Of a stretch of 64,000 nt of DNA, positions 21,764 through 29,503 are shown piece by piece. Source of the stretch: Chryseobacterium herbae (GTDB taxonomy: Bacteria; Bacteroidota; Bacteroidia; Flavobacteriales; Weeksellaceae); assembly GCF_025154075.1 (NCBI RefSeq), contig NZ_JAOAMU010000003.1, positions 459,713-523,712 on the forward strand, read 5' to 3'. The position numbers were made by a program, and so were the translations under genes. Position 1 is the stretch's first letter, and every line of letters starts with the position of its first letter. The notes under the pieces were generated by a model that worked only from the letters and a program-made list of their open reading frames with translations, was not told the DNA's origin and ran no database searches.

Positions 21764-22124
21764 CGGGTTTGAAACTTTTTTCCAGTTCGATGCTTGCGCC
21801 TTTCATTTCGCCCTGCATCGGTGGGGAAGTTTTTGTAATTTTCAATTTGATGTAAGAAATCTGAGGAAAACTTTCATGAATCTTCATCGTAATTCTTCCC
21901 GCTACATGTTCCAGTAATTTAGATTTGATAGCCATTTCCTGATGAATGATTCCGTTGATATCAGCATAACTGATCGTATCATTCAGATCATCCGTTTCAG
22001 CGGCTTTCCAAAGATCCGTGTGCAGTTCAGCATTTAAAATATAATAGGTGCCGATGATGTTTTCTTCGGGAAGAACCCCGTGGTACGCATATATTTTTAC
22101 ATCTTCAAGAGAGATCTTGCTCAT
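21753..22124 (-). CDS. folB: Dihydroneopterin aldolase
   Basis: The 123-aa enzyme cleaves 7,8-dihydroneopterin to 6-hydroxymethyl-7,8-dihydropterin and glycolaldehyde in folate synthesis. Landmarks: IYAYHGVLPEEN (11-22) with the active-site Tyr/Glu region, SYADINGIIHQEM, and KLLEHVAGRITMKI. Its ATG overlaps the thrC stop (ATGA, 4 bp) and its end overlaps the DUF4403 gene, so it is embedded in the threonine operon without an obvious metabolic link. Confidence 0.93.
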   Translation of the reverse strand: MSKISLEDVKIYAYHGVLPEENIIGTYYILNAELHTDLWKAAETDDLNDTISYADINGIIHQEMAIKSKLLEHVAGRITMKIHESFPQISYIKLKITKTSPPMQGEMKGASIELEKSFKPGDQ

Positions 22125-23434
22125 TGTTCGTGATTTTTATTCAGCAAAAATCGTTTTAATTCTTCAAAATCTGCATGTATTTCTACAGTTTTTTTCTCCT
22201 TTTTCATCAGATCGTTCAATGCTTCAGGAATCTCAATCTTAATAGACGTTGCTTTTTCTACTGCTTCAGGGAATTTCACCGGATGAGCAGTTCCCAGAAT
22301 AAATCCTTTTTTACCTGGATGTTCATTCAGATATTGTTCGAGGGAAGTAAAGGCAACCGCGCCGTGAGGGTCAAGAATATAGCCGTACTTTTCATAAACT
22401 TCCGCAATAGTTTTCAGTGTAGATTCATCATCTACAGAATATCCCGAGATCATGTTTTTCAAATCTTCAAACTGATGCCCAAAAAGTTCAAGGATTCTGG
22501 TGAAATTGCTTGGGTCTCCCACATCCATGGCATTAGATAAAGTAGCGACTGCTTTTTTAGGATGATATTCATTTGATTTCAGATAATCCGGAACCACATC
22601 ATTTTCATTACAGGCAGCTATAAAATGTTCGGCCGGAAGTCCTCGGAAATAAGCCAAAAGTCCTGCACAGATGTTCCCGAAATTTCCACTTGGAACACAG
22701 ATAACAGGATCTGTATTTTCCCGCTGTTGCCATTGTTTTAAGGCTAATACATAATAAATCTGCTGAGGAAGCCATCTAGCAATATTAATAGAATTGGCTG
22801 AAGTTAAAAACAATTCGGAATTAATGCTTTCATCTGAAAAAGCCTGCTTTACAAGATGCTGACAGTCATCAAAATTTCCGTCTACTTCCAATGCAGAAAT
22901 ATTTCCACCCAGTGCGGTAAGCTGCTTTTCCTGAACCGGACTCACCCTGTTTTTAGGATAAAGGATAACCACATTGATTCCCGGAACGTTATAAAACCCA
23001 TGGGCAACAGCTCCTCCTGTATCACCGGAAGTGGCAACCAAAACCGTTACTTTTTTATCCTGATCTTTCAGAAAATACGACAGGCAACGGCTCATAAATC
23101 TAGCACCGACATCTTTAAAGGCTAAGGTCGGTCCATGGAAAAGTTCCAGAACGGATATCTGCTCATTGATTTTTTTCAAAGGAATGTCAAAGCTGACTGT
23201 TTCTGCAGCAATTTTCTTTAATTCTTCCACTGGAATTTCGTCCCCGATAAGATCTTTCATGCATCGGAATGCAATTTCTTCATCAGAATAAAGATGCAGA
23301 TTGGAGATGAATTCTTCATCAAATTGAGGAATAGTTTCCGGGAAAAACAATCCTTTCTGGCTACCCTGGCTTTTTATAGTGGCCGTTTTAAAATCAACGG
23401 TTTCCTGGTTGTCTTTTAAATTATAATACTTCAT
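22121..23434 (-). CDS. thrC: Threonine synthase
   Basis: This 437-aa PLP enzyme converts O-phosphohomoserine to threonine. The PLP lysine is K107 in GPTLAFKDVGARFMSR, followed by VATSGDTGGAVAHGF (phosphate-binding) and CVPSGNFGNICAG. An upstream ATG (23473) would add 13 residues and overlap thrB. I prefer the ATG at 23434 because MKYYNLKD is the usual family start and leaves a 10-bp gap to thrB, as between thrA and thrB. Confidence 0.95.
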   Translation of the reverse strand: MKYYNLKDNQETVDFKTATIKSQGSQKGLFFPETIPQFDEEFISNLHLYSDEEIAFRCMKDLIGDEIPVEELKKIAAETVSFDIPLKKINEQISVLELFHGPTLAFKDVGARFMSRCLSYFLKDQDKKVTVLVATSGDTGGAVAHGFYNVPGINVVILYPKNRVSPVQEKQLTALGGNISALEVDGNFDDCQHLVKQAFSDESINSELFLTSANSINIARWLPQQIYYVLALKQWQQRENTDPVICVPSGNFGNICAGLLAYFRGLPAEHFIAACNENDVVPDYLKSNEYHPKKAVATLSNAMDVGDPSNFTRILELFGHQFEDLKNMISGYSVDDESTLKTIAEVYEKYGYILDPHGAVAFTSLEQYLNEHPGKKGFILGTAHPVKFPEAVEKATSIKIEIPEALNDLMKKEKKTVEIHADFEELKRFLLNKNHEQ

Positions 23435-23444
23435 TGTCCTTGCT

Positions 23445-24386
23445 TTATTGGTTTTCATCATTAATTTCTTCAACGATTTCGATTCCCGCAGGATTTATTT
23501 TTGAAATGTATACAAAACTTTCAATCTCAATTTCGTCATACACCGACTTCATCAGCTGAGTAATTCTTTCTGCCGTTTCTTTGGTCTCTGCCAGCATAAA
23601 AATGGATGGCCCGGAACCTGAAATTCCACCGCCGAGCGCTCCAGCTTCTAAACTTTTCATTTTAATTTCATCAAATTTTGGAATCAAAATACTACGGATA
23701 GGTTCTATCAATACATCATTGAGGCTTCGTCCGATCAATGGAATGTCGTTTTTTAAAATTCCCGCGACCAGTCCTGCGATATTTCCCCACTGTTCTACCG
23801 CATCCTTCAGGAGGATATTTTTCTTTAAGATCTGTCGTGCATCGGAAGTCTTCACTTCAACCTGAGGATGTACAGCTGCCACAAACAGATTGGGAGTACT
23901 CAACGGAATAATATCAATAGGAGAGGAGGATTTCACCAATGTGATGCCGCCATAAATGCACGGTGCAATATTATCGGCATGACGCACTCCTGAGGCCAGT
24001 TCTTCCCCAAACATAGCGAAGTGAACCAGTTCTTCATTTGACAGAATATTTCCTAACAAAACATTGGCCCCAAAAGCGGCTCCTGCGGCACTTGCCGCAC
24101 TGGAACCAAGCCCGCTGCCCGGCTTAATATGTTTGCGGATCGTTACTTCAAAACCTTTCGTCAGCTTGAGATGTTGCTGGATATTCTGCAGAACAACGCC
24201 CGCCACATTTTGAGAAGGATTTTCCGGAAGCCCGAAATGATCTTCATGTCTGATAATGATCTCCGGGCTGTCCAGTAATTTCAGTTCCATTTCGTCGTAT
24301 GGCTCATGGATGGCCATTCCAAGGATATCAAATCCGCAAACGAGATTGGCGACGGTGGCCGGAACTTTTATTTTTATTTTTTTCAT
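23445..24386 (-). CDS. thrB: Homoserine kinase
   Basis: The 313-aa GHMP-family kinase phosphorylates homoserine for threonine synthase. The ATP-binding GHMP motif is PGSGLGSSAASAAGAAF (89-105), and the C-terminal motif GALGGGISGSGPSIFML is present. It lies 10 bp after thrA and 10 bp before thrC, forming a classical thrABC operon. Confidence 0.97.
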   Translation of the reverse strand: MKKIKIKVPATVANLVCGFDILGMAIHEPYDEMELKLLDSPEIIIRHEDHFGLPENPSQNVAGVVLQNIQQHLKLTKGFEVTIRKHIKPGSGLGSSAASAAGAAFGANVLLGNILSNEELVHFAMFGEELASGVRHADNIAPCIYGGITLVKSSSPIDIIPLSTPNLFVAAVHPQVEVKTSDARQILKKNILLKDAVEQWGNIAGLVAGILKNDIPLIGRSLNDVLIEPIRSILIPKFDEIKMKSLEAGALGGGISGSGPSIFMLAETKETAERITQLMKSVYDEIEIESFVYISKINPAGIEIVEEINDENQ

Positions 24387-24396
24387 ACTATTTATT

Positions 24397-26844
24397 TTAA
24401 ACGGATCTTATAATATCTGCAAAAACACCACTGGCAGTGACTTCAGCTCCCGCACCGGCACCTTTTACCACAAGAGGCTGCTCAGAATATCTTAAAGTTT
24501 TAAAGATGACGATATTGTCTTTACCATAAAGATGATACAAATCGCTGTCCGGAGCGGCGTGCTGCAGTCCGACTTTGGCTTTTCCGTCTTTAAAATCAGC
24601 GGTATATTTTAAAATTTTGCCTTCTTTTTGGGCATCATTCAGTAAACTTTTGAAATGATCTTCATACTCGGTAAGTTTGAGATAAAAGTCTTCCACACTT
24701 CCCTGAAGACATTCCTCGGGAAGGAAGCTTTCATTTTCAATTTCATCAAACTGAAGGGCATATCCGGCTTCTCTGGCTAAAATTAAAATCTTGCGGGCGA
24801 CATCAATTCCTGTAAGATCCAAACGCGGATCTGGTTCAGTATAGCCTTCTTTCTGAGCTTGGGCAACCACTTCAGAGAATGTTCTGCTTCCATCATAATT
24901 ATTGAAAACAAAATTTAAAGTTCCACTTAGAACCGCCTGAATAGATGTGATTTTGTCGCCACTTTTCATTAAATCATTAATAGTTCCAATCACGGGAAGT
25001 CCGGCGCCTACATTGGTTTCAAAGTAAAAATTGCAGTTATGATTTCGGGCAGTACGTTTTAAGGTTTTATACTGTTCAAAATCTGAAGAAGCTGCGATTT
25101 TGTTGCAGGCGACAATATTCACACTCCTTTTTAATAAATCTTCATACACTTCTGGGACCGATGAACTGGCGGTTACATCTATAAATACCGAGTTCCGGAG
25201 ATTCCGTGAAATGATTTCGTCTGCAAATCCATGGATAGAAGCTTCAATCGCTTCTTGATTCCAATTGTTGAATTCACGTTCAGAAATTCCATGATCAGAA
25301 AAGAACATCCTCCGGCTGTTTGAAATTCCGGCAATTCTTAAATTGATCAAATGATTTTCCTGCAGATAATTGTTCTGTTCATAAATTTGCTGCACCAATT
25401 TTGAACCCACATTTCCAGTTCCACAGATATAAAGATGGACCTGTTTTATTTCCGATTCAAAAAACTCTTCATGTAAAATGTTGACCGCTTTTCTGGTGTC
25501 TTTTTCAGAAATAACGATGCTGATATTCCTTTCAGAAGATCCCTGGGCAATAGCTCTGATATTGATCCCGTTATTTCCCAGACATCCGAACATCTTGGCA
25601 CTGATACCGCTTCTGTTTTTCATGTTTTCTCCAACCAGAGCCACAATTGAAAGCCCGGTTTCTATTTTTACAGGAGCCATTCGCTGTAGCTGTATATCGT
25701 CTTCAAAAGCTGCATTCACCACATTTTCGGCATGAAACACCTCTTTTTCATTGACAGCAATAGTAATGGAATGTTCCGAAGATCCCTGAGTAATAAGAAT
25801 CACATTTATTTTTTCAAAACTCAGGCACTGGAAAAGCTTTGCTGAAATTCCCGGAATTCCTACCATTCCGCTTCCTTCCAGAGTAAGAAGAGCAATATGA
25901 CTCATATTCGAAACTCCGGCTGCAGGTTGTTTTTCATTTTCAGACTTATTGAGATTGTGGGAAACCAAAGTTCCATAGGCTTCCGGATCAAATGTATTTT
26001 TGATCTTAAGGTCAATATTTTTCGCCATGACAGGCTGTATGGAAGGTGGATAGAGAACCTTAGCTCCAAAATGAGAGAGTTCCATCGCTTCATGATAAGA
26101 AATCTCAGGAATAGGTTTGGCGTTGGATGCCAGTCTCGGATCTGCAGTCATCATACCGCTTACGTCGGTCCAGATCTGGAGTTCCTCAACAGACACAGCT
26201 GCTGCAATGATGGATGCAGTATAATCTGAACCGCCACGTCCTAATGTGGTGGCATTGCCATTATTATCTTTAGCTATAAAACCGGGTGCAACAATGATTT
26301 GGTTTTGATGAGCAGCGATATAGTTTTTGAGATTTTCGTCTGTGGAGTCAAAATCTACCTTAGCATGAGCAAAATTGCTGTCGGTTCTGATCAGTTCAGC
26401 TGAATTCATCCAAAGACTGTCCAGTCCTTCGTGCTGAAGCCGTGCTGCTATAATATTTGAAGAGAGAAATTCACCGTAGGAAGTGATTCTGTCCCTTATT
26501 TTATCTGTGAATTCACCTAATACAAAGATTCCGTTGTAGATATCTTCCATATCATTGCAATGTTTTTTAACGAAGCTCAGCCATGAGCTCTGCTCTAAAA
26601 TAGGGATCAGTTCTTTGACGAGATCAAGGTGTTTTTCTTCAATATTTTTGATGATCGGGATATAATTTTCGTCTTTAACAGCAGCATATTCTGCCGCTTT
26701 TATAAGACTGTCAGTAATTCCATGAAGGGCTGAAACGACAACGATAATCCTGTTCTGTGAAGATTCTTTTTTGATAATATGTTCTGCCAGAAGAATATTC
26801 CGGGCATTGGCGACAGATGTACCGCCGAATTTTAAGACTTTCAT
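24397..26844 (-). CDS. thrA: Bifunctional aspartokinase / homoserine dehydrogenase
   Basis: This 815-aa fusion catalyses the first and third steps of the aspartate pathway. The aspartokinase domain (1 to ~290) starts with VLKFGGTSVANA and has TLGRGGSDYTASIIA. A double ACT region (~310-455) with paired GIPGISAKLF and RSGISAKMFG repeats is the likely threonine-binding site. The NAD(P)-dependent homoserine dehydrogenase domain (~465-815) has YICGTGNVGSKL and GTLNFVFNNYDGS. It heads thrABC-folB-DUF4403 and is preceded by a Thr/Ile-rich leader peptide. Confidence 0.97.
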   Translation of the reverse strand: MKVLKFGGTSVANARNILLAEHIIKKESSQNRIIVVVSALHGITDSLIKAAEYAAVKDENYIPIIKNIEEKHLDLVKELIPILEQSSWLSFVKKHCNDMEDIYNGIFVLGEFTDKIRDRITSYGEFLSSNIIAARLQHEGLDSLWMNSAELIRTDSNFAHAKVDFDSTDENLKNYIAAHQNQIIVAPGFIAKDNNGNATTLGRGGSDYTASIIAAAVSVEELQIWTDVSGMMTADPRLASNAKPIPEISYHEAMELSHFGAKVLYPPSIQPVMAKNIDLKIKNTFDPEAYGTLVSHNLNKSENEKQPAAGVSNMSHIALLTLEGSGMVGIPGISAKLFQCLSFEKINVILITQGSSEHSITIAVNEKEVFHAENVVNAAFEDDIQLQRMAPVKIETGLSIVALVGENMKNRSGISAKMFGCLGNNGINIRAIAQGSSERNISIVISEKDTRKAVNILHEEFFESEIKQVHLYICGTGNVGSKLVQQIYEQNNYLQENHLINLRIAGISNSRRMFFSDHGISEREFNNWNQEAIEASIHGFADEIISRNLRNSVFIDVTASSSVPEVYEDLLKRSVNIVACNKIAASSDFEQYKTLKRTARNHNCNFYFETNVGAGLPVIGTINDLMKSGDKITSIQAVLSGTLNFVFNNYDGSRTFSEVVAQAQKEGYTEPDPRLDLTGIDVARKILILAREAGYALQFDEIENESFLPEECLQGSVEDFYLKLTEYEDHFKSLLNDAQKEGKILKYTADFKDGKAKVGLQHAAPDSDLYHLYGKDNIVIFKTLRYSEQPLVVKGAGAGAEVTASGVFADIIRSV

Positions 26845-26907
26845 CTATGATGTATTTGAGATTGGAGAAAAGCGAATGTTTGCTCTTTTAAAAAAAAGAG
26901 TATGGGT

Positions 26908-26952
26908 GCAGGAAATGATATGTGAAAATGTACCCCGCTACGGGGTAGATGT
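26908..26952 (-). promoter_or_regulatory. Hairpin over the leader stop codon, putative attenuator of thrA
   Basis: On the minus strand TACCCCG and CGGGGTA form a perfect 7-bp stem whose 3-nt loop TAG is the leader peptide's stop codon (26938-26940). The 3' arm could alternatively pair with TGCACCC about 20 nt downstream. The T run after it is weak, so whether it terminates transcription or blocks translation cannot be read from sequence. Confidence 0.4.
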
Positions 26953-27045
26953 TGTAGATGTAATCGTTGATGTAGAAACAGAAGATAGTCCCGAAATAAG
27001 TAATTCCGGTGTAGAAATATCTGATATGTTTCTTAGAAAGTTCAT
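26938..27045 (-). CDS. thrL: thr operon leader peptide, 35 aa
   Basis: This ORF lies 93 bp upstream of thrA. The peptide begins MNFLRNISDISTPELL, and its last 11 residues are TSTITSTTSTP: six Thr and one Ile. The same bias, Thr plus Ile codons just before the stop, defines the enterobacterial thrL attenuator, although the sequence is unrelated. A hairpin overlaps its stop codon. A -7 match TACATTTG on the minus strand (27057-27064) lies just upstream. Starvation for charged tRNA-Thr or tRNA-Ile would stall ribosomes here; regulation of thrABC by attenuation is my inference. Confidence 0.65.
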   Translation of the reverse strand: MNFLRNISDISTPELLISGLSSVSTSTITSTTSTP

Positions 27046-27056
27046 TCTTTACGGAA

Positions 27057-27064
27057 CAAATGTA
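27057..27064 (-). promoter_or_regulatory. -7 element TACATTTG of the thr operon
   Basis: It fully matches TAnnTTTG on the minus strand, 11 bp before the leader ATG, implying a very short 5' untranslated region. No TTG is found at -33. Confidence 0.4.
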
Positions 27065-27207: not shown

Positions 27208-27411
27208 ATGAAGAATTTAAAAAAAATGACCCGAAAACATTTGGGAATGATTAATGGAGCTGCTGCTTCCAATTGTAATAGCTGCCCTAAAGGCGGATTT
27301 GGTCCTGGTGGCTCTGCAGCAGGCTATACCTATTCATGCGAGGATTATTATGAACTTGTTACGGCACGTTGCAGTACCTGCGTTATTGTTAGCTCGGCGT
27401 GTTTCCAATAA
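27208..27411 (+). CDS. Double-glycine-leader Cys-rich peptide, subfamily A, 67 aa
   Basis: The leader is MKNLKKMTRKHLGMINGA, with a GA instead of GG at the predicted cleavage site, then AASNCNSCPKGGFGPGG and a C-terminal CEDYYELV...C..C.V...C pattern. There are six cysteines. It shares the layout C-x2-CP, aromatic-G-x-G/P, SC-x2-Y/F-x-A/E-L, C, V-x-V, C with the peptides at 28290, 28961 and 29297, so I place it in subfamily A. It has its own promoter and terminator. Function is unknown; a bacteriocin-like or signalling peptide is inferred from the leader. Confidence 0.8.
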   Translation: MKNLKKMTRKHLGMINGAAASNCNSCPKGGFGPGGSAAGYTYSCEDYYELVTARCSTCVIVSSACFQ

Positions 27412-27433
27412 CCGAAATATAAAAGAAATTAAA

Positions 27434-27463
27434 GAGACTGTCTGAAAAGGCAGTCTTTTTTTA
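27434..27463 (+). terminator. Terminator after the 27208 peptide gene
   Basis: GACTGTCT (27436-27443) pairs with AGGCAGTC (27448-27455), loop GAAA, then seven T. Confidence 0.85.
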
Positions 27464-27622
27464 TGCAGAATAACGGTAATCACCCAAAATGGATCACTTA
27501 CTTAATATTCAGCTACACCTGTGAATTCTGGTTTTGTTTTGAAGTCTGTACGTTTCATATTTGTCTAACATATCAACAGAGTGTGAAAAATAACAACAAT
27601 AGTAATTTAAACTCAGAATATT

Positions 27623-27796
27623 ATGAAAAAATTTAAAAAACTTTCCAGAAAAGAATTAAAAACGGTGGCGGGTGCCGGCATAGATTGTGGTCCTTTCCCA
27701 TGTGTCTGCATTTATACCCATTATTGGTGTGAATATGCGAAGAAATGTATTCCCAAAGGAATCTATTGTGGAAAAATTCCGGTGGAAGTAGAATAG
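27623..27796 (+). CDS. Double-glycine-leader Cys-rich peptide, singleton, 57 aa
   Basis: The leader is MKKFKKLSRKELKTVAGAG, cleaved presumably after GA or AG. The mature ~38 aa are GIDCGPFPCVCIYTHYW then a second cysteine group ending CGKIPVEVE, with six cysteines. The core differs from the other peptides here. A TAATTTA element lies upstream (about 27604). It begins a run of four closely spaced peptide genes (gaps 41, 31 and 34 bp), probably one transcript. Confidence 0.75.
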   Translation: MKKFKKLSRKELKTVAGAGIDCGPFPCVCIYTHYWCEYAKKCIPKGIYCGKIPVEVE

Positions 27797-27837
27797 TGAT
27801 TGTCATTAAATGTATCATTAAAAACCAAGAGATCAAT

Positions 27838-28053
27838 ATGAAAAATGCAAATAAAATATCAAGAGAAAAACTCAAAAATATTACTGGCGGCTATGGCTAT
27901 ATTTTAATTAACTGTAATACGCCAAATGGAGGTTTTACGAAGTGCAGTGTTCTGCGGGACATTCAAGTTTGTCCGCCGGTTTATCAAGTTTGTACTGCCA
28001 GTAATTGCCTTGAAGGTGGAGGATGCGGCATGCCCGGCCTTGAAATAAAATAG
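27838..28053 (+). CDS. Double-glycine-leader Cys-rich peptide, singleton, 71 aa
   Basis: The ATG at 27838 is preferred over an upstream in-frame ATG at 27745, which would lie inside the preceding gene, because it yields the leader MKNANKISREKLKNITGG. The mature part (~53 aa) starts YGYILINCNTPNGGFTKC and has six cysteines and a Gly-rich end (CLEGGGCGMPG). There is no close paralogue in the window. It is second in the four-gene run. Confidence 0.75.
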   Translation: MKNANKISREKLKNITGGYGYILINCNTPNGGFTKCSVLRDIQVCPPVYQVCTASNCLEGGGCGMPGLEIK

Positions 28054-28084
28054 TAAATTAAAAATTTGCGTAATACCAATCATT

Positions 28085-28255
28085 ATGAAAAACCTGAAAA
28101 AACTTTCAAGAGAACAAAAAAGTAAAATCAGCGGTGGGTTTACTGAGTTTCAAATCGAAACCTGTGGCGGTGCTGCTTATGTATGTTTCCGTGGAGGCGG
28201 TGCCTGGGGATGCTGGAGAAAACCCGGTGGAACCTGTTATCCTCCGATGGTGTAA
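28085..28255 (+). CDS. Double-glycine-leader peptide, subfamily B copy 1, 56 aa
   Basis: The leader is MKNLKKLSREQKSKISGG. The mature ~38 aa contain FQIETCGGA, YVCFRGGGAWGCWRKPGG and a final Cys: four cysteines, with Gly- and Trp-rich character typical of small pore-forming or antimicrobial peptides. It matches the peptide at 28710 at 49 of 56 positions. It is third in the four-gene run; its duplicate has a separate promoter. Confidence 0.8.
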   Translation: MKNLKKLSREQKSKISGGFTEFQIETCGGAAYVCFRGGGAWGCWRKPGGTCYPPMV

Positions 28256-28289
28256 TTAATAAAACTATATCAATCTCAAAAAAAATATT

Positions 28290-28490
28290 ATGAAAAAATT
28301 ATCAAAAGAGCAATTGAAAAGCATCAACGGTGCCGCTTGCCCAGGAGGATGTCCTTATCCTGCGGGAACTACTTTCGGTCCTCCGGGATCCGGTGCTACC
28401 CGAAACTGCCAGCAATATAATGCTTTGAGCGACTGCTGTAAAGGTCAGTATCTTGTACATATGGGTTGCGTAGGTCCAATTGTTAACTAA
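28290..28490 (+). CDS. Double-glycine-leader Cys-rich peptide, subfamily A, 66 aa
   Basis: The leader MKKLSKEQLKSINGA ends in a GA site. The mature region is ACPGGCPYPAGTTFGPPG then RNCQQYNALSDCCKG and a C-terminal GCVGPIVN: six cysteines, including an adjacent CC pair also found in the 28961 peptide. It is last of the four-gene run; a structured T-rich 3' segment follows (28501-28622). Confidence 0.8.
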   Translation: MKKLSKEQLKSINGAACPGGCPYPAGTTFGPPGSGATRNCQQYNALSDCCKGQYLVHMGCVGPIVN

Positions 28491-28500
28491 TCCGGACTGA

Positions 28501-28622
28501 AAGAGCAGAGGTGGAAGAAGTTTCTTCGATTATAATTATGGGGGTTTAAAAATAGGAGTAACGAAGCTGAGACTAATTATTTTACCAGCTTTTACATCTC
28601 CCGTCTCCGCTCTTTTATTTTT
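28501..28622 (+). terminator. Branched terminator-like structure after the peptide run
   Basis: An outer stem AAAGAGC (28501-28507) and GCTCTTT (28610-28616) encloses two inner hairpins, GAAGA/TCTTC (28515-28528) and AAGCTG/CAGCTT (28565-28592). It is followed by TATTTTTC. It is larger than a simple terminator and could be a structured RNA element. Confidence 0.4.
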
Positions 28623-28680
28623 CTATCTTAATTCATTATTTCTCAAACATATAATATTTCATCATTCAGGGATAAAATAC

Positions 28681-28688
28681 TATATTTA
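28681..28688 (+). promoter_or_regulatory. -7 element TATATTTA of the 28710 peptide gene
   Basis: It is the same octamer as before the 27208, 28961 and 29297 genes, here preceded by GATAAAATAC, which recurs almost exactly (GATAAAATGAT) before the 29297 gene. Confidence 0.5.
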
Positions 28689-28709
28689 TGAAACAAAATA
28701 AAAATTAAT

Positions 28710-28880
28710 ATGAAAAATTTCAAAAAACTCTCAAGAGAACAAAAAAGTAAGATCAGTGGTGGAATTACCGATTTTCAGATTGAAACCTGCGGAGGTGCTG
28801 GCTACGTATGTTTCCGTGGAGGCGGTGCCTGGGGCTGCTGGAGAAAACCTGGAGGTATCTGTTATGCACCAATGCTGTAA
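28710..28880 (+). CDS. Double-glycine-leader peptide, subfamily B copy 2, 56 aa
   Basis: A near-duplicate of the peptide at 28085: the seven differences are conservative and all four cysteines, the leader SREQKSKISGG and the core CFRGGGAWGCWRKPGG are unchanged. Divergence is concentrated near the leader junction (FTEF versus ITDF) and the last residues. Selection to keep the core is suggested but needs codon analysis. It has its own -7 element. Confidence 0.8.
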   Translation: MKNFKKLSREQKSKISGGITDFQIETCGGAGYVCFRGGGAWGCWRKPGGICYAPML

Positions 28881-28933
28881 TTAAAAAATGCTCTGCTTTT
28901 AATGATATTTTCCATGGATCAGGTTTAAAATCA

Positions 28934-28941
28934 TATATTTA
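28934..28941 (+). promoter_or_regulatory. -7 element TATATTTA of the 28961 peptide gene
   Basis: The recurrent octamer lies 19 bp before the ATG, without a clear -33 TTG. Confidence 0.45.
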
Positions 28942-28960
28942 TAAACCAAAACAAATTAAT

Positions 28961-29155
28961 ATGAAAAATCTGAAAAAATTAAACAGAGCAATTTTGAAAT
29001 CGGTTAATGGTGGAAATGTCTGTTATGAAAACTGTCCTCCAGGACCTTATGGACCAGGACCGGATTACCCAAGATCATGCGATGATTTTAATGCTTTACC
29101 TGAATGCTGTAAATTACGGGTAAAAGTAGATTATCTATGTTCCGGACCATTATAA
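28961..29155 (+). CDS. Double-glycine-leader Cys-rich peptide, subfamily A, 64 aa
   Basis: A longer in-frame start at 28808 lies inside the previous gene and is rejected; the ATG at 28961 gives the leader MKNLKKLNRAILKSVNGG. The mature ~46 aa read NVCYENCPPGPYGPGPD, then SCDDFNALPECCKLRVKV and LCSGPL, with six cysteines. It aligns with the 28290 peptide (C-x3-CP, Y-G-P, C-x2-F/Y-NAL, CC). Confidence 0.8.
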   Translation: MKNLKKLNRAILKSVNGGNVCYENCPPGPYGPGPDYPRSCDDFNALPECCKLRVKVDYLCSGPL

Positions 29156-29162
29156 GTATAAG

Positions 29163-29193
29163 AAAGCACTGTTTTAAGGATAGTGCTTTTTTC
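29163..29193 (+). terminator. Terminator after the 28961 peptide gene
   Basis: AAAGCACT (29163-29170) pairs with AGTGCTTT (29182-29189), followed by TTT. Confidence 0.75.
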
Positions 29194-29264
29194 GTCTTTT
29201 AAAGGAGTATTCTAAGTATTTGATTTTTTTTAATATGTATATCACCTGTGTGGGATAAAATGAT

Positions 29265-29272
29265 TATATTTA
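29265..29272 (+). promoter_or_regulatory. -7 element TATATTTA of the 29297 peptide gene
   Basis: The recurrent octamer lies 24 bp before the ATG, after GATAAAATGAT. Confidence 0.45.
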
Positions 29273-29296
29273 AAACTCAAAAAAATTAAAATTATC

Positions 29297-29503
29297 ATGA
29301 AAAATTTAAAAAAATTAAACAGAAAAGAGTTGGGTAAAGTAAACGGAGCAGCGGGTCCATCAAGATGTTCAGGATGTCCTCAAAATGCTACTTTTGGAGA
29401 TGGACCTGAATATAAGTATCCATGTTCAGCTTATCAGGGACTTGCAGATCAGTGTAAAATGTGTGTTCTTGTAAGTATGGAGTGTGTAAATCCTGAATTA
29501 TAA
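29297..29503 (+). CDS. Double-glycine-leader Cys-rich peptide, subfamily A, 68 aa
   Basis: The leader MKNLKKLNRKELGKVNGA ends in a GA site. The mature ~50 aa are AGPSRCSGCPQNATFGDGP then YPCSAYQGLADQCKMCVLVS and ECVNPEL, with six cysteines. It is closest to the 27208 peptide in having the split C-K-M-C pair rather than CC. It is monocistronic, with its own -7 element and a strong bidirectional terminator shared with nadA. Confidence 0.8.
   Translation: MKNLKKLNRKELGKVNGAAGPSRCSGCPQNATFGDGPEYKYPCSAYQGLADQCKMCVLVSMECVNPEL

Follow-up and report, generated by a model that had tools for sequence, protein, structure and literature searches.

The enterobacterial thr operon is preceded by a leader (thrL; Rfam Thr_leader) that codes for threonine and isoleucine residues and has hairpins around its end. 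The stretch of Chryseobacterium herbae DNA analysed here (64,000 nucleotides, referred to as the window) resembles thrL in having a Thr/Ile-coding leader just upstream of thrABC and hairpins around the leader end. The principle, leader-peptide attenuation, is known, but the form found in the window lacks the usual transcription stop signal.

The leader and its operon

The gene order thrA-thrB-thrC was assigned from Pfam matches, with ThrA recognised by an NCBIfam model as well. For thrC the ATG at 23434 was picked by us as the start; the mechanically called ORF opens at a TTG at 23473. The genes, the leader and its promoter motif are as follows:

22121..23434, minus strand: thrC, threonine synthase (Pfam)
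23445..24386, minus strand: thrB, GHMP kinase (Pfam), homoserine kinase by operon context
24397..26844, minus strand: thrA, bifunctional aspartate kinase/homoserine dehydrogenase (NF006959, 990.6 bits, cut-off 726; Pfam)
26938..27045, minus strand: leader peptide ORF, 35 codons and the stop TAG, peptide MNFLRNISDISTPELLISGLSSVSTSTITSTTSTP
26941..26973, minus strand: presumed sensing codons TSTITSTTSTP, the final 11 codons of the leader
27057..27064, minus strand: -7 promoter element TACATTTG, of the TAnnTTTG type, ending 11 nt before the leader ATG

A preliminary description of this DNA had placed a 35-codon ORF 93 bp before thrA on the same strand, with six Thr codons and one Ile codon among its last 11. 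The position is correct to the base, with 93 nt separating the leader stop from the thrA ATG at 26844, and the codon count also agrees with the sequence, the final 11 codons comprising six Thr, three Ser, one Ile and one Pro. When all ORFs of 20-60 codons in the whole window are considered, with one start per stop (662 ORFs), the leader is the sole ORF with at least five Thr in its final 11 codons. The peptide matches no NCBIfam model. Bacteroidota ribosomes mostly do not use Shine-Dalgarno pairing.

The -7 element that had been noted just upstream of the leader is present at 27064..27057. The motif TAnnTTTG, which we take to be the Bacteroidota -7 promoter consensus, lies 8-12 nt before the ATG in all 74 copies from the genus that have a complete leader (exactly 10 or 11 nt in 70 of them), and outside the genus set it is found within 160 nt upstream of the element in 52 of 58 loci. 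Between the hairpin at the leader stop (H2, below) and thrA, the motif occurs in 9 of these 58 loci and in only one of 75 genus loci. A promoter downstream of the leader, a possibility raised in the preliminary description, finds no support in the latter count, the motif being absent from the interval in 74 of the 75. Since TAnnTTTG precedes the leader and is nearly missing between H2 and thrA, transcription of thrABC most likely starts just before the leader, as far as a motif can tell. The nine other loci with a downstream motif include all five that were parsed from family f27 (L220-L223, L250), in which it lies between the H2-H3 region and thrA, so that a second promoter bypassing the leader may exist there.

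Divergently from the thr operon, the plus strand of the window encodes eight small peptides in a row (27208..29503). Six of them reach the cut-off of NCBIfam NF047798 ('leader_Chryseo', a bacteriocin-like leader domain), and the first and third score below it.

Conservation within and beyond the genus

A full-length fused ThrA is encoded by 75 of 118 genomes of the genus, and one more (G062) has ThrA in pieces. The thrA upstream region contains a complete leader in 74 of the 75; the remaining locus (L063) begins at a contig end, yet keeps the 3' part of the leader, and G062, with its broken ThrA, likewise carries the leader (L212). The 74 complete leaders are 29-43 codons long and their stops lie 86-109 nt from the thrA ATG. 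Over the ten codons that precede the final one, Thr takes 481 of 740 positions, Ser 88 and Ile 68, and the peptide ends in TP in 73 of the 74 leaders and in SP in L022. All four Thr codons are used (ACA 248, ACT 160, ACC 83 and ACG 23 of 514), which points to selection for the amino acid as opposed to a repeat in the DNA. Among the genus leaders the N-terminal half (LRNISDIS) is also well conserved.

The gene thrC is present in the same 76 of 118 genus genomes as thrA. Full-length thrA and thrC are jointly absent from the other 42, which are possible threonine auxotrophs. A second ThrA-like match (about 519 aa, 34-37% identity) was inspected by script at three loci in genomes without thrA, where no Thr/Ile-rich short ORF was detected on the strand of the gene; by eye, the neighbours of this second gene resemble methionine-synthesis genes. 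Two candidate further copies of the element were discarded, namely a second copy in the same genome (L002, 81% over 48 nt), which by eye has no Thr-rich leader, and an exact motif match (L155) that looks unrelated on reading.

For wider searches, covariance models were built from 48 genus sequences (R1) and from 43 sequences (R2). R1 matches 109 of 296 genomes of the family, spread over 5 of 33 genera (E up to 0.01), and 44 of 246 order genomes (E up to 0.05), while R2, at E up to 0.01, matches 77 of 395 genomes drawn from the order and 14 of 395 drawn from the class; these draws of genomes overlap and include the genus, and non-matching genomes are counted whether or not they have thrA. Six of the 14 class matches lie outside the order, five in family f27 and one in f50. 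Where 15 genus genomes listed without an R1 match were searched for ThrA, all proved to be without the full-length protein; a further 167 non-matching genomes of the R1 family search lie outside this comparison. So far the leader RNA has been seen only in Bacteroidota-type genomes.

Fifty-eight matched loci were opened in two batches of 34 and 24, four of them (L137, L138, L152 and L153) from the same genus; the set omits the weak matches G331, G371, G467 and G475 (E 0.01-0.05) and some of the remaining matches. In 56 of the 58, ThrA is the next long ORF. An ATG-started leader is present in 32 of the 34 loci of the first batch (none was found at L144 and L145) and a leader is present in 24 of 24 in the second, where GTG and TTG starts were also allowed. 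The preliminary description had proposed looking for conserved Thr-rich short ORFs before thrA in relatives, and such ORFs are indeed found, in 74 of 75 genus loci and in further genera and families. From one family to another the N-terminal half of the peptide varies, the Thr run and H2 are kept, and the sequence ACATAT downstream of H2 is mostly kept. Directly before the Pro or Leu codon of H2 stands a Thr codon in 73 of 74 genus leaders (Ser in L022) and in 32 of 34 and 24 of 24 opened loci. At L154 (G340, family f9), the gene that comes next after a leader rich in Thr and Ile and a hairpin of the H2 type is thrB-like and not thrA. At L133 (G464), the next ORF after the Thr-rich leader is not thrA but one starting MYKKKIMITQKQIDDLTYKIIGAAIEVHKIMGRG, which by eye looks like a GxxExxY-type protein.

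Hairpins around the end of the leader

The leader transcript has a predicted folding energy of -33.8 kcal/mol (z = -3.73; none of 200 shuffles as good), and its best fold includes three hairpins, which together with an intervening conserved segment make up the element:

26974..27033, minus strand: H1, AGAAACA..TGTTTCT around CCGGAAT-TACTT-ATTTCGG, inside the leader ORF (from the fold)
26931..26947, minus strand: H2, TACCCCG-TAG-CGGGGTA, a stem of 7 bp whose loop is the stop codon (from sequence and fold)
26918..26929, minus strand: single-stranded segment ATTTTCACATAT between H2 and H3 (conserved in two alignments)
26883..26900, minus strand: H3, CTCTTTT-TTTT-AAAAGAG, with a pyrimidine-rich 5' arm, before thrA (from the fold)

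An inner H1 stem of at least 6 bp can be drawn in 72 of 74 genus leaders, where shuffles of whole codons average 17.9 such leaders and never exceed 26, and the outer arms are exact in 58 of the 74. H1 is a possible pause hairpin.

H2 is the 7-bp GC-rich hairpin of the preliminary description and is found as described, with the stop codon as its loop, at 26947..26931. Its 5' arm is built by the last Thr and Pro codons of the leader, and its core, ACCCC..GGGGT, is present in 73 of 74 genus leaders. Across 43 aligned loci 99.5% of its cells are paired, yet H2 is almost invariant and therefore displays little covariation. By eye, three distant leaders (L195, L198 and L199) have ACGGG..CCCGT hairpins at this position with the stop in the loop, which would amount to a compensated change of H2. 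The placing of the stop in the H2 loop is shared by the genus and part of its relatives; in others the stop comes after the hairpin, with peptides that end in TPLG or TPFGV.

Across the genus set the segment ATTTTCACATAT hardly varies, and its ACATAT is altered in distant loci such as L140, L143, L231, L233 and L237. A pseudoknot between the H2 loop and the ACATAT region was considered and dropped, the pairing being present by eye in some loci and absent in others. H3 lies 28-35 nt from the GGGG of H2 in 120 of 133 loci. Five of its six counted pairs have two-sided changes and 93.3% of its cells are paired over the 43 loci; the innermost counted pair fails in 12 of them. The joint covariation score of H2 and H3 is 0.211 against 0.120 for shuffled alignments (a level that none of 500 reached), and sliding gives no more than 0.100, a result that is support and not proof, since the alignment was fitted to the model and kin sequences can beat shuffles without any structure. 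In 57 of 64 distinct H3 stems (from 133 loci, the species not being independent) the 5' arm is the more pyrimidine-rich. At some loci, L135 and L241 among them, the hairpin picked automatically as H3 is doubtful.

A GC-rich hairpin followed by a U-tract, as in the classical attenuators of the E. coli trp/thr type, is not found here. The U run had been called weak from the start, and rightly so, in that a terminator scan of the stretch between the leader and thrA in the window returned 0 sites, against a shuffle mean of 0.3. H3 is not followed by a clear U-tract either; at most 6 of 10 nt are T, a value reached in 11 of 133 loci. In 103 of the 133, the 5' arm and loop of H3 contain a T run of at least five. 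A long-range terminator was considered, in which GGGGUA(UA)..(UA)UACUC pairing would be followed by the U run inside H3. It was dropped as a general rule because T runs there do not exceed 3 in 18 of the 133 loci (including L139, L141 and L142), and because, by eye, loci with GGGGUU after H2 show no matching change in the 5' arm of H3.

The window leader differs from thrL in lacking both an Rfam match and a hairpin with a U-tract, in the position of the stop codon within or next to a hairpin, and in having the conserved ACATAT segment and an AU-rich H3. A search of the whole window with Rfam at gathering scores found a single tRNA and no Thr_leader, and on the leader region two matches to unrelated families, far below gathering scores, were obtained up to E = 1. 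The statement that the locus mirrors the enterobacterial attenuator stands for the leader and hairpins, but not for an intrinsic terminator or a clear U-tract after H3.

Possible modes of control

The leader is conserved, as are its codon bias, its promoter motif, its potential to form H1, H2 and H3 and its linkage to thrA. A short ORF with start and stop lies between the promoter, as placed by motif, and the first structural gene, and codons for the end product are concentrated in this ORF and conserved at the amino-acid level across species. Judged from these sequence features, control of thrABC by the leader peptide is very likely, and transcription attenuation is the likely outcome. The best explanation, and probably the correct one, is ribosome-mediated attenuation, whereby the supply of threonyl-tRNA would set thrABC expression by way of the translating ribosome. 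For the events themselves, that is, stalling of the ribosome, a switch of pairing partners and the premature end of transcription as the outcome, we infer the following course. Transcription would begin a few nt before the leader ATG, and H1 would fold as the leader emerges, where it may pause RNA polymerase and give a ribosome time to catch up. As in classical attenuators, four strands can be named, ACCCC (1), GGGGU (2) and the 5' and 3' arms of H3 (3 and 4). With enough threonine, the ribosome would clear the Thr run, stop at or next to H2 and depart, whereupon H2 would close (1:2), H3 would form (3:4) and most transcripts would stop short of thrABC. When charged threonyl-tRNA is low, the ribosome would stall on the Thr codons that abut and enter the 5' arm of H2, and H2 would be kept from closing; strand 2 (GGGGUA) could pair with the pyrimidine-rich strand 3, H3 would be disturbed and the operon would be expressed.

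The 2:3 pairing was assessed over 99 distinct pairs, with relatedness uncontrolled, and the duplex of strand 2 with its own strand 3 has an energy of -4.72 kcal/mol against -4.44 for swapped partners (2 of 200 as good), a small margin, and -3.79 for shuffled strand 3 (none of 200 as good). In several loci, for example L140, L143, L144, L231 and L237, this pairing is weak or absent. Ribosome-mediated control of threonine synthesis, as originally proposed, is supported in part, by the conserved Thr-rich leader, the motif and the hairpins; the 2:3 switch is a candidate, and ribosome-mediated attenuation as set out above does not account for how transcription would end early with no U-tract after H3.

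It is this last step on which the other explanations chiefly bear. One is that the ribosome on the leader governs Rho-dependent termination or RNase cleavage in the stretch of single strand between H2 and H3 that carries the conserved ACATAT, with H3 protecting the processed end of the thrA transcript. The high conservation of the stretch between the hairpins and the lack of a clear U-tract after H3 speak for such an arrangement, as does the start of the long ORF about 26-137 nt after the element, a distance that varies too widely for H3 to be a likely part of the site where thrA translation starts. Against it stand the lack of direct evidence for sites of Rho or RNase action, the plain intrinsic terminators of four relatives (see below) and the alteration of ACATAT in some distant loci (for example L140, L143, L231, L233 and L237). 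This version is rather unlikely. Its odds overlap with those of ribosome-mediated attenuation, since both have the same sensor and only the output differs. A broader formulation, which we offer tentatively, is that thrABC is controlled by a threonine attenuator that has no terminator and acts through Rho, an RNase or another RNA-binding factor and not through intrinsic termination. Its parts would be a hairpin placed on the last sensing codon and the stop codon, the conserved single-stranded ACATAT and a covarying AU-rich hairpin.

That H2 itself is a weak intrinsic terminator, consisting of the hairpin, a few bases and TTTT and kept open by a ribosome stalled on the last Thr codons, is improbable. 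The Thr run does adjoin H2 and a short T run does follow it, but this run is offset by about 3 nt, the terminator scan gave 0 sites, and the conserved ACATAT and the covarying H3 would be left without explanation. Still more improbable is that the ORF, though conserved, serves to make a functional small protein and has no sensing role. Conservation of LRNISDIS in the genus would suit a protein, yet this N-terminal half differs in other families, which keep the Thr run and H2. Part of the same half also forms H1, and the peptide has no NCBIfam match.

The significance of the locus is that it offers a leader-peptide sensor that is conserved, uniform and open to testing, in a phylum for which, in our judgement, the map of cis-regulatory RNAs is still sparse. 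Should the terminator truly be missing, ribosome-mediated control would have to work through another route of termination or decay; if experiment finds a terminator after all, it would teach what Bacteroidota accept as one. A 2004 FEMS comparative study of attenuators in proteobacteria reportedly extends its predictions to Bacteroidetes/Chlorobi. The literature search, in which most subscription journals were outside the scope, so that absence carries little weight, found nothing closer than the following. In Flavobacterium psychrophilum, strong clues to leader-peptide attenuation upstream of amino-acid biosynthesis operons are described in a 2021 report (PMC9723704), and the window is like this system in being from a flavobacterium and in having a leader peptide upstream of such an operon. 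The main text of that report has 0 occurrences of thrA or threonine, and its tables may or may not include a thrA leader. Short ORFs reminiscent of leader peptides occur in Bacteroides, according to PMC7366714, and PMC1262725 and PMC4833913 concern Actinobacteria and leader-gene spacing. The term 'undocumented', used for the leader at the outset, can be kept to the extent that nothing closer was found for a thrA leader, but not for leader-peptide attenuation in Flavobacterium, which is reported in PMC9723704.

More distant members of the class have leaders of another layout. ThrA (E up to 1e-150) is present in 30 of 149 class genomes, and upstream DNA was taken from 27 of these, the window's own and two already examined being left out. 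By a score of at least six Thr/Ile in the last 14 codons, with at least three Thr, ten of the 27 regions have a leader, against 0.24 expected from shuffles, and 17 do not; two regions with such leaders by eye, L188 and L196, escape the score. Canonical terminators were detected in four of 15 scanned regions (L191, L193, L194 and L197, all of family f55), and L196, from a further family, has a strong hairpin without a U-tract. These leaders resemble that of the window in being Thr/Ile-rich short ORFs (with Met as well in L196) before a bifunctional thrA, but they differ from it in that all five loci have a hairpin of 10-12 bp before thrA, and in four of them a U-tract comes with it. In each of the five, a part of the leader region is complementary to the 5' arm of the hairpin over 5-8 nt, with G-T pairs allowed, which would correspond to the textbook arrangement, although a complement of 5-6 nt is weak evidence for it. 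That such leaders exist in the class speaks for ribosome-mediated attenuation in the window. Convergence with the enterobacterial attenuator had been suggested at the outset; as leaders before thrA occur widely in the class, they may be old. They are a theme of the class, of which the form in the window is one variant. By eye, the thrA leaders of L196, L198, L199, L200, L204 and L205 contain codons for Met in addition to Thr and Ile, as might be expected if several amino acids of the aspartate family exerted control together.
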